From contig JAIMBL010000008.1 in NCBI GenBank assembly GCA_023511615.1, forward strand, positions 1 to 52,367: 52,367 nt of DNA. Reading direction: 5' to 3'. The translations under genes and the position numbers were made by a program. The DNA is from Leptolyngbyaceae cyanobacterium HOT.MB2.61 (GTDB lineage Bacteria > Cyanobacteriota > Cyanobacteriia > Leptolyngbyales > Leptolyngbyaceae). Below, piece after piece: positions 7,299-10,125 of this stretch (within the stretch, counting starts at the first letter, position 1; each line of letters begins with the position of its first letter). The notes under the pieces were generated by a model. The model searched no databases and was not told the DNA's origin. It saw nothing but the letters and a program-made list of their open reading frames with translations.

Positions 7299-8621
7299 CT
7301 ATGCCCGTACTGCCTGCCCGTGACGCAAAATCACCCGACCTGATAATTCGTGCCTCAGCCAGGGTGTGTTACTTGAGAGAGATTTAAGTGTATGCGGTTC
7401 TACTATCCAGGGCTGATTGGGATTGAACAAAATCAGTTCTGCAGCAGCGTCAGGCACGATCGCGCTCGGTTTCTGCTGCAAACAGCGGGCTGGGTTGGTG
7501 CTGAGGCAACGCCACAGTTCCAGTGCAGACCATTGACCCGTTTCGACCAGTGCCTGCCAGAGTAACGGCAGAGCCAGCTCCAGCCCAATTGCACCGGGAG
7601 GCGCTTCGGCAAAGGCAACCGTTTTTTCTTCGTAAGTGTAAGGGGTGTGGTCAATGGCGATCACATCCAGTACCCCCTCCTTTAACCCTTTTAAGAGAGC
7701 CATCTGGTCTTCCAGATTTCCCAACGGAGGGTTTAACCGCAGATTAGGATCATAGCTGCCAACAGCTTCACTATTAAGTAACAGGTGCATCCAGGAAGTG
7801 CTGGCAGTCACGGGTACCCCACGAGCCTTTGCCGCTCGAACCAGTTCCACTCCGCGGGCTGTGGAAATTCGCATCAGGTGAACGGGAGTACCAATGGTTT
7901 CAACACATTCCAGTAGGGCAGAGAGGGAAGCGGTTTCGGCGATCGCAGGCACCCCTGGCAACCCAAACTGCATCGATTCTCGCCCCTCTCGCATCACACC
8001 ATTGCCCGCCAACCCAACATCCCATGCCCAGAGGGCGATTGGTTTGCCAATGGGTTTTAAGTACTCCAGCAAACGGCGCACCATTGCCAGCTGGCTCAAC
8101 GGTTTTCCATCCGCAAAACCAGCAATCTCGGCCATTGCCAGTTCTGCCAGTTCGCTCATTTGCTGCCCCTGAGTGTCAATTGTAAGGGCAGCCCAACAGT
8201 GGAGATGGGGGTAGTAGAGAACTGAGGGGCAACTTCCTACATCTCTCCTGGCTTGCCATTCCCTCCAGTTCCTGGCCTTTTCTCTCAACCACGCCACAGT
8301 CGCTGGATTATCGATGGCAGGGACAGTATCAGGCAGAATGACAACCTGGGTAAAACCGCCTGCCGCTGCCGCTTGCATCAAGGACTCCAGAGTTTCTCGC
8401 TCTTCAAAACCAGGTTCTCCCGAATGGCTATAGAGGTCAACTAACCCAGGACCCAGGATGAGCCCCTGGCAGTTGTGAATGATGGTTTCACTGGGCAGCT
8501 CAGTGATGTTATCACTCACCTCCCGAATGATGCCGCCTTCAATTAAAACGTCTGCAACTCGATCCGTCCCCGCAACTGGATCGATAACCCGCACCTGTTT
8601 TAAGAGTTCAACAGCATCCAT
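7299..8621 (-). CDS. Dihydroorotase-like protein, probably non-catalytic
   Basis: The 440-residue protein has the amidohydrolase fold and overall sequence of class I dihydroorotase (PyrC), the third step of pyrimidine synthesis. The key ligands are largely gone. The usual HxH after the GLVD motif reads Y64-S65-H66 (DLYSHSGEPG). The conserved His of HxED is Trp (ALWAWDV). The His of HVST is Arg (LMRISTARG). Only the Asp of IDHTPY (D324) remains. By analogy with pseudo-dihydroorotases in other bacteria, it may be a structural partner of aspartate transcarbamoylase, or it may act on something else. The start is ATG 8621. Upstream in-frame translation to 8801 is Pro/Ser/Leu-rich spacer sequence and was discarded. 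Confidence 0.85.
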   Translation of the reverse strand: MDAVELLKQVRVIDPVAGTDRVADVLIEGGIIREVSDNITELPSETIIHNCQGLILGPGLVDLYSHSGEPGFEERETLESLMQAAAAGGFTQVVILPDTVPAIDNPATVAWLREKARNWREWQARRDVGSCPSVLYYPHLHCWAALTIDTQGQQMSELAELAMAEIAGFADGKPLSQLAMVRRLLEYLKPIGKPIALWAWDVGLAGNGVMREGRESMQFGLPGVPAIAETASLSALLECVETIGTPVHLMRISTARGVELVRAAKARGVPVTASTSWMHLLLNSEAVGSYDPNLRLNPPLGNLEDQMALLKGLKEGVLDVIAIDHTPYTYEEKTVAFAEAPPGAIGLELALPLLWQALVETGQWSALELWRCLSTNPARCLQQKPSAIVPDAAAELILFNPNQPWIVEPHTLKSLSSNTPWLRHELSGRVILRHGQAVRA

Positions 8622-8763: not shown

Positions 8764-10125
8764 CTAAAGTGCTCCAGCGGCTGTTTTATCCAGCACCCCA
8801 CCCAAATGAGTCGTGATGTTCATGGCAGTCAGGACTGGTTTTTCACTTCTCTGGGAATAGTCAATCACGCTAACGGCCCCATTGCCCTGCTTAAAGTTCC
8901 AGAAATGATCTGGCCCCAACCCTAAAACGTAGCAGAGGATAGCCTTATTAATGGCGTCGTGGGCAACGACCAAGGTGATTCCAGGTTCGCGCTGGTAAGC
9001 AGCCTGTACGATGCTATCCCAGGCAGCGATCGCCCGTTCCCAAACCTGTTGCAAATTTTCACCCTCTGGCATTTGCACAGTTTCCGGTGAATTTTGCCAC
9101 TGCTGAAGCATGCCTGGATAGGAAGCTTCAATCTCAGTCTCCAGCTTACCTTCCCACAGCCCGTGGCTGATCTCCCTCAGGTTATCCTCCAGTTCTAACT
9201 GGACATCAGGATGATATTGCAAAATGACTTCAGCAGTCTCCTTAGGGCGCAGCATGGGGCTGGTAACGGCGGCCTGAATTGGAACGGATTTCAAAAACTC
9301 TGCCGCCTGTTGGGACTGCACACGACCTGTATCGTTCAATGGCACATCAATCTGCCCCTGAAAGCGTTTCTGCCGATTCCAGTCAGTTTCTCCGTGGCGC
9401 ACTAGCAGAAGGCGTGGTCCCTTTCTTCCCTGCTTCGGTTTGGGCAGGGGTTCTCCTAAATGAGCGGTGAGATTGAGCGACTCTAGCTGAACGGGATCAC
9501 CCCACCCACCCGAAAAATTCAGAACGCTGATGCCACAGTTGGACTGGTGAACGGATTGATAGCGCTCCGGGGACAATCCCACAGCCGTACTTACCAGAGC
9601 CCGGTTGATTCCACTATGGGCAACAATCAGAATCGTTTGTCCCCCATGGCGTGGCAACAAATCCTTCCAAAAATCCCTGGCCTGATTGTAGAGAGCCAGA
9701 ACGGGGTAGAAATCGGTCGATCGCCCGTCCGAATCAGTAACCACCATCCGCAACTTTTCGGGGGCTTGCTGCCAGTTACGATATTCCTCCGGGTACTTCT
9801 CCGCCACCTCTGTAAACAGCATCCCTTCCCACAGCACCAGATTAATTTCCTTCAGGTTATCCGTAATCTGTAGAGGGATTGCAGGGGGGGTGCTTAGCTT
9901 TGAAAGAATAATCTCAGCAGTGTCCTTTGCCCGACTGAGCGGACTGGTGTAAACCGCATCAAATTTTATCTCCCTGAGAGCATCCCCAACTTGGCGAGCT
10001 GATTCCTTTCCTTTTTCAGTCAGTGTGGATTTATCCCAGTGACCCTGAACTCGGCGCTCAAGGTTGAAACTGCTTTCGCCATGACGAACGAGAATAACGC
10101 GGGTTGTTGAGAATTGGGTTGGCAT
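8764..10125 (-). CDS. Tandem histidine-phosphatase (phosphoglycerate mutase-like) protein
   Basis: This 453-residue cytoplasmic protein holds two complete histidine phosphatase domains. The first (about 8-215) has ILVRHGESSFN and a second catalytic His in IVAHSGINRA. The second (about 236-445) has LLVRHGETDWN and VVAHDAINKA. The RHG histidine becomes phosphorylated in this superfamily. Members include cofactor-dependent phosphoglycerate mutase, alpha-ribazole phosphatase and cyanobacterial metal-independent phosphoserine phosphatases. The substrate cannot be read from sequence. Both active sites look intact, so this is a true double-headed enzyme or an obligate internal dimer. It lies upstream of and co-directional with the dihydroorotase-like gene, 142 bp away. 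Confidence 0.88.
   Translation of the reverse strand: MPTQFSTTRVILVRHGESSFNLERRVQGHWDKSTLTEKGKESARQVGDALREIKFDAVYTSPLSRAKDTAEIILSKLSTPPAIPLQITDNLKEINLVLWEGMLFTEVAEKYPEEYRNWQQAPEKLRMVVTDSDGRSTDFYPVLALYNQARDFWKDLLPRHGGQTILIVAHSGINRALVSTAVGLSPERYQSVHQSNCGISVLNFSGGWGDPVQLESLNLTAHLGEPLPKPKQGRKGPRLLLVRHGETDWNRQKRFQGQIDVPLNDTGRVQSQQAAEFLKSVPIQAAVTSPMLRPKETAEVILQYHPDVQLELEDNLREISHGLWEGKLETEIEASYPGMLQQWQNSPETVQMPEGENLQQVWERAIAAWDSIVQAAYQREPGITLVVAHDAINKAILCYVLGLGPDHFWNFKQGNGAVSVIDYSQRSEKPVLTAMNITTHLGGVLDKTAAGAL

Follow-up and report, generated by a model that had tools for sequence, protein, structure and literature searches.

What does a gene do whose protein family is named for dihydroorotase (DHO) and whose product has replaced residues that hold the metal in that enzyme? 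The question is raised by a gene on the reverse strand (positions 7299 to 8621) of the 52,367-nucleotide stretch of Leptolyngbyaceae cyanobacterium HOT.MB2.61 DNA analyzed here, hereinafter the window. Its 440-aa product scores 650.7 bits against the NCBIfam equivalog NF005614/PRK07369, named dihydroorotase (curated cutoff, 456), and is a type I DHO homologue according to this profile match, its alignment to the Aquifex DHO, and the fold match of its AlphaFold2 model found by Foldseek. Our answer, held with moderate confidence and based on the analogy with homologues of Pseudomonas aeruginosa and Sinorhizobium meliloti, is that this type I DHO has lost catalysis (a pseudo-DHO) and is kept for a structural role, as a subunit of aspartate transcarbamoylase (ATCase).

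Substituted ligands in a widespread cyanobacterial family

Alignment to the Aquifex DHO identified three replaced histidines in the window protein, i.e., His61 to Tyr64 (reverse strand, as are all features below; positions 8430 to 8432; a zinc ligand in Aquifex), His180 to Trp198 (8028 to 8030), and His232 to Arg251 (7869 to 7871). The open reading frame, its coordinates, and all three residues are as the preliminary description had given them. Further changes are Arg65 to Gly68 (8418 to 8420) and His309 to Tyr328, while His66 (Aquifex His63), Asp324 (Asp305; 7650 to 7652), and Asp171 (8109 to 8111) are kept, the latter corresponding to Asp152 or Asp153, with one residue deleted here and the family alignment placing it at Asp153. 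The HxHxR region thus reads Tyr64-Ser-His66-Ser-Gly68, lacking the full set of HxH ligands plus Arg65 of a catalytic type I DHO. Loss of metal ligands is a trait of class A2 pseudo-DHOs and is seen in the window protein, where His66 is present, a residue not conserved in the family. Aquifex Arg65 presumably has a substrate-binding role. Since, according to PMC3880350, changing His180 and His232 to alanine leaves the activity of the Aquifex DHO almost intact, the substitutions that carry most weight are those that introduce Tyr64 and remove Arg65.

From the phylum, a first sample took in 244 genomes with a completeness of at least 90%, and 92 of them match NF005614 above the cutoff. Of the 244, 117 belong to the class: 24 are in family f19, which we read as picocyanobacterial, and the other 93 are here termed crown genomes, both names resting on genome size and kinship. 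The pseudo-DHO gene is present in 93 of 93 crown genomes (the G060 copy is frameshifted and below the cutoff), and family f19 has a divergent copy in 16 of 24 genomes and none in 8, all of genus g33 (1.6 to 1.7 Mb). In a second sample, 362 of 388 class genomes match NF005614. Outside the class (families f30 and f36), the 10 aligned homologues all bear the usual DHO motifs, and the f30 copies compared directly adjoin pyrB (e.g., in G192, G222, G184, and G236). Decay in a single genome is ruled out as the source of the substitutions, which are family-wide; because the same changes recur throughout the family, they amount to more than chance substitution. We found no account of a cyanobacterial pseudo-DHO in the PMC open-license literature; a 2004 ATCase paper by Labedan may already mention one. 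Where present in the rest of f19, the pseudo-DHO evolves fast.

Conservation and covariation at the former metal site

Conservation was computed over 148 family members outside f19, some genomes being represented twice by a named and an unnamed locus; L075 (a frameshifted copy), L072, and one named locus of <380 aa were left out. The weighted percentages are 97% for Tyr64, 90% for Gly68, 94% for Asp171, 95% for Arg251, 94% for Asp324, and 99% for His325, and these six positions rank toward the conserved end of the alignment (entropy percentiles 6 to 26). Positions 66, 98, and 198 are variable, with His in 74% at the first and Trp in 66% at the last. That the loss of ligands is fixed family-wide while the protein stays conserved supports a role in ATCase.

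Arg251 covaries with Asp324. Raw, unweighted counts for the pair 251/324 in the 148 sequences are Arg/Asp 143, Arg/Glu 1, Gly/Asn 3, and Asn/Asn 1. Of 108 new sequences, 20 with at least 98% identity to older ones were removed, leaving 82 crown sequences (Arg/Asp 77, His/Asp 1, Gly/Asn 3, Asn/Asn 1) and 6 from f19 (all Asn/His). Across the combined 246 sequences, 222 have a basic/acidic pair, 24 have Gly or Asn together with Asn or His, and none is discordant, a coupling that further supports the ATCase role. On a tree built without columns 251 and 324 there are four changes at each position, the four being joint, and column 324 is the best of 406 scanned against 251 (Fisher 5e-14, next 6e-9, values in which kinship is not corrected for). 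An independent-pairs sign test has four pairs only, gives p 0.125, and cannot reach 0.05 with that number. The out-of-sample set of 82 crown sequences did not reveal a further independent loss; it added members to three known lineages and showed one Arg-to-His change. The latter (L306, from G324) has at position 251 the residue that active DHOs carry there and keeps Asp324, the sole such case of the 246.

The metal center of the Aquifex DHO holds both equivalent positions (PMC3880350), and we infer an Arg251-Asp324 salt bridge where the zinc was. Zinc would be absent, Arg251 would stand in for its charge by pairing with Asp324, which is retained, and the pair would keep the entrance to what was once the active site folded with no metal present. 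Judged by its residues, the site is rebuilt, not erased or degraded; the word "degraded" in the preliminary description is misleading, given the family conservation and the 251-324 covariation of the new form. If a salt bridge did form, the strict covariation would make this a clear example of one having evolved where a metal site had been.

The low entropy of positions 64, 68, 171, 251, 324, and 325 would also suit a repurposed protein, whose pocket (Tyr64, Gly68, Asp171, Arg251, Asp324, His325, Tyr328) would either accommodate a new ligand, perhaps a nucleotide regulating ATCase, or turn over a new substrate. We consider this unlikely, as four independent lineages have replaced 251 and 324 jointly, which suits a structural over a catalytic pair, and the old-pocket positions 66, 98, and 198 are variable. 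Of the two options offered initially, a pseudo-DHO or a protein with a new substrate, the conserved family-wide loss favors the former, and the joint replacement of the Arg/Asp pair makes the latter less likely; the role of an ATCase scaffold, also suggested there, would be the best reading in view of homologues that act in this way.

Other dihydroorotases and the gene neighborhood

A pseudo-DHO serving ATCase would leave the dihydroorotase step to a separate enzyme. One had been predicted to exist elsewhere in the genome, and it was indeed found: contig C90 of the window genome (G000) encodes a DHO of 455 aa with intact motifs and a score of 808 bits to NF005751/PRK07575. A separate catalytic DHO, in this case motif-intact by sequence, is what accompanies class A2 pseudo-DHOs, and the PRK07575-type enzyme would carry out the step here, no class II PyrC being detected above the cutoff in the genome of the window itself. 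Of the 93 crown genomes, 74 match PRK07575 above the cutoff and 18 match class II PyrC above it; the latter was looked for in a selection of 48 genomes that took in all crown genomes lacking PRK07575, with five f19 genomes outside the search. Altogether, an apparently intact second DHO is present in 90 of the 93, the broken copy of PRK07575 in G179 and the partial one in G191 having been excluded (G191 has the class II enzyme). This second DHO, in the window genome and in nearly all crown genomes, supports the ATCase role.

The remaining three genomes all have pyrB, pyrD, and the pseudo-DHO gene; no other DHO was detected in G125 and G239, and only the broken copy in G179. An assembly gap, an unrecognized DHO enzyme, or activity of the pseudo-DHO itself are possible explanations. 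These genomes count against the ATCase role and lend some weight to the view that the protein is still a DHO, with an altered metal site formed by Tyr64, His66, Asp171, and Asp324, as do the retention of the last three residues in the window protein and the name that NCBIfam gives the family. Such an enzyme is nevertheless very improbable: His66 is found in only 74% of the weighted family and Arg65 has become Gly in 90%, the copies in G125, G239, and G179 bear the same kind of substitutions, and nearly all crown genomes have another DHO. From its sequence, we are confident that the window protein is not a working DHO. Should the pseudo-DHO alone act in G125, G239, and G179, the pseudoenzyme reading would be challenged.

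The same-strand upstream neighbor of the pseudo-DHO gene in the window encodes a two-domain histidine phosphatase (8764 to 10125; Pfam PF00300 in two stretches), and a similar same-strand upstream open reading frame was seen in 28 of the 60 loci that were compared and overlaps in one other. In five families (G054, G005, G123, G036, and G129), a PRK07575 DHO gene lies 0.8 to 1.9 kb from the pseudo-DHO gene, and in the intervals read we interpret the open reading frame between the two as signal-peptidase-like, mostly on the opposite strand. Three further genomes have a broken or partial PRK07575 copy close to an intact pseudo-DHO gene (G179:C31, G191:C79, and G056:C36), the last two genomes also having a class II PyrC.

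Proximity to a catalytic DHO gene in five families supports the ATCase role. Together with the remnants in the three other genomes, it would also fit a structural role alongside some protein other than PyrB, for instance the catalytic DHO or carbamoyl phosphate synthetase. This we think is quite unlikely, for the pseudo-DHO is intact in G056 and G191, two genomes that carry a class II enzyme and whose neighboring DHO gene is broken or partial, and the inactive type I DHOs that we found characterized in print all pair with ATCase, as far as they are described in PMC7053772, PMC5929573, and PMC4581275.

PyrB linkage, relatives, and predicted structure

The proposal of an ATCase subunit finds no backing in pyrB linkage within the crown. 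Adjacency to pyrB, which is typical of class A2 without strictly defining it, is not seen in the window genome (pyrB on contig C120, the pseudo-DHO gene on C362), nor, by the gene positions in the first sample, does any crown pseudo-DHO gene lie beside pyrB, which counts against an ATCase role. In genus g33, 8 of 9 members in one sample lack the pseudo-DHO yet have pyrB and class II PyrC, so that the protein must be dispensable for some PyrBs, which likewise counts against the ATCase role. Nearly all sampled members of this genus are without it, and it is present in G211 and G485. Picocyanobacterial PyrB shows no conspicuous footprint of pseudo-DHO loss: changes affect 8 of the 108 conserved columns and are mostly conservative, hence no sign of a released interface in PyrBs without the partner.

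Characterized relatives offer the closest guide to function. P. aeruginosa PyrB depends on its pseudo-DHO, the PyrC′ of a class A2 ATCase, both to trimerize and to be active (PMC7053772). Compared by its published description, this PyrC′ is likewise an inactive type I DHO homologue with an active PyrC encoded elsewhere, and it differs from the window protein in being a proven PyrB subunit. According to PMC5929573, disruption of the pyrB-adjacent DHO homologue smc01361 of S. meliloti, for which the name PyrX was proposed, causes pyrimidine auxotrophy despite an essential PyrC. The fungal CAD-like (Ura2) pseudo-DHO, as described in PMC7053772, also is an inactive DHO that serves ATCase, but as a domain of a fusion protein. 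What we call new relative to known class A2 partners are the unlinked gene, the near-universal presence in the crown, and the Arg-Asp replacement.

Four alphaproteobacterial homologues (L208 to L211), one of them a Sinorhizobium sequence, have pyrB no more than 0.7 kb upstream on the same strand at all four loci, with a hypothetical gene between in L210. Like PyrX, they belong to the same fold family and have lost both HxH histidines (4 of 4), which in pyrB-linked homologues supports the ATCase role; unlike the window protein, to which L208, L209, and L211 are 33 to 36% identical, PyrX and these four are pyrB-linked and have Met, His, Glu, or Gln at position 251. The best match of L210, below the cutoff, is NF006558/PRK09059, a curated "dihydroorotase" model that may also name pseudoenzymes.

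Phylogenetically, the cyanobacterial pseudo-DHOs form one group (support 100/100). L208 to L211 group with them, with support of 98/94 using all columns and 88/76 without the metal-site columns, a weakening that counts against the ATCase role, and when PRK07575 DHOs are included they stand beside those instead (85/78). The AU test does not reject the alternative of a clade with active DHOs of the phylum itself (p-AU 0.097 and 0.326). By these trees, the pseudo-DHO may have arisen from the phylum's pyrB-linked active DHO or may share its origin with the alphaproteobacterial pseudo-DHOs.

The AlphaFold2 model of the window protein (53 sequences; pLDDT 83, pTM 0.87) has as its best Foldseek match the Aquifex DHO within the class A1 ATCase complex (3d6n_A; TM 0.84 by query length). 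The free Aquifex DHO (1xrf) scores TM 0.70, with fewer ordered residues, which by itself depresses the score. This greater resemblance to the ATCase-bound form supports the ATCase role, although the Aquifex protein differs in being an active zinc enzyme with its ligands intact. Residues 318 to 350 (7572 to 7670) have a mean entropy percentile of 27, and their middle, 328 to 344, is well conserved, yet has a pLDDT of <50 in the model. Three loops of the Aquifex DHO are disordered until ATCase binding (PMC3880350); the low-pLDDT segment might correspond to these same loops, and we propose residues 318 to 350 as a putative partner-binding loop.

By analogy with Aquifex and Pseudomonas, pseudo-DHO dimers would link a pair of PyrB trimers in a dodecamer and stabilize the PyrB active sites, which are located between subunits. 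More tentatively, and with somewhat less than even confidence, we suggest that the Arg-Asp bridge replaced zinc in the oxygenic cyanobacterial ancestor, giving a metal-free ATCase subunit phylum-wide that was loosened in picocyanobacteria and mostly lost in one streamlined genus. Most cyanobacterial ATCases would then be an uncharacterized class A2 complex, an assembly at the entry of pyrimidine synthesis across the whole phylum, and the lineages that have the partner and those that lack it would serve as natural experiments on the point at which PyrB can do without it. A curated "dihydroorotase" family found in essentially every sampled crown genome is very likely misnamed, which affects annotation and metabolic models.

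The PyrB of the window genome (L212, open reading frame 445 to 1665 of C120) has a charged, repeat-like insertion of about 45 residues after profile position 196, and the PyrB profile match is also split in G054, G056, G062, G095, and G161.
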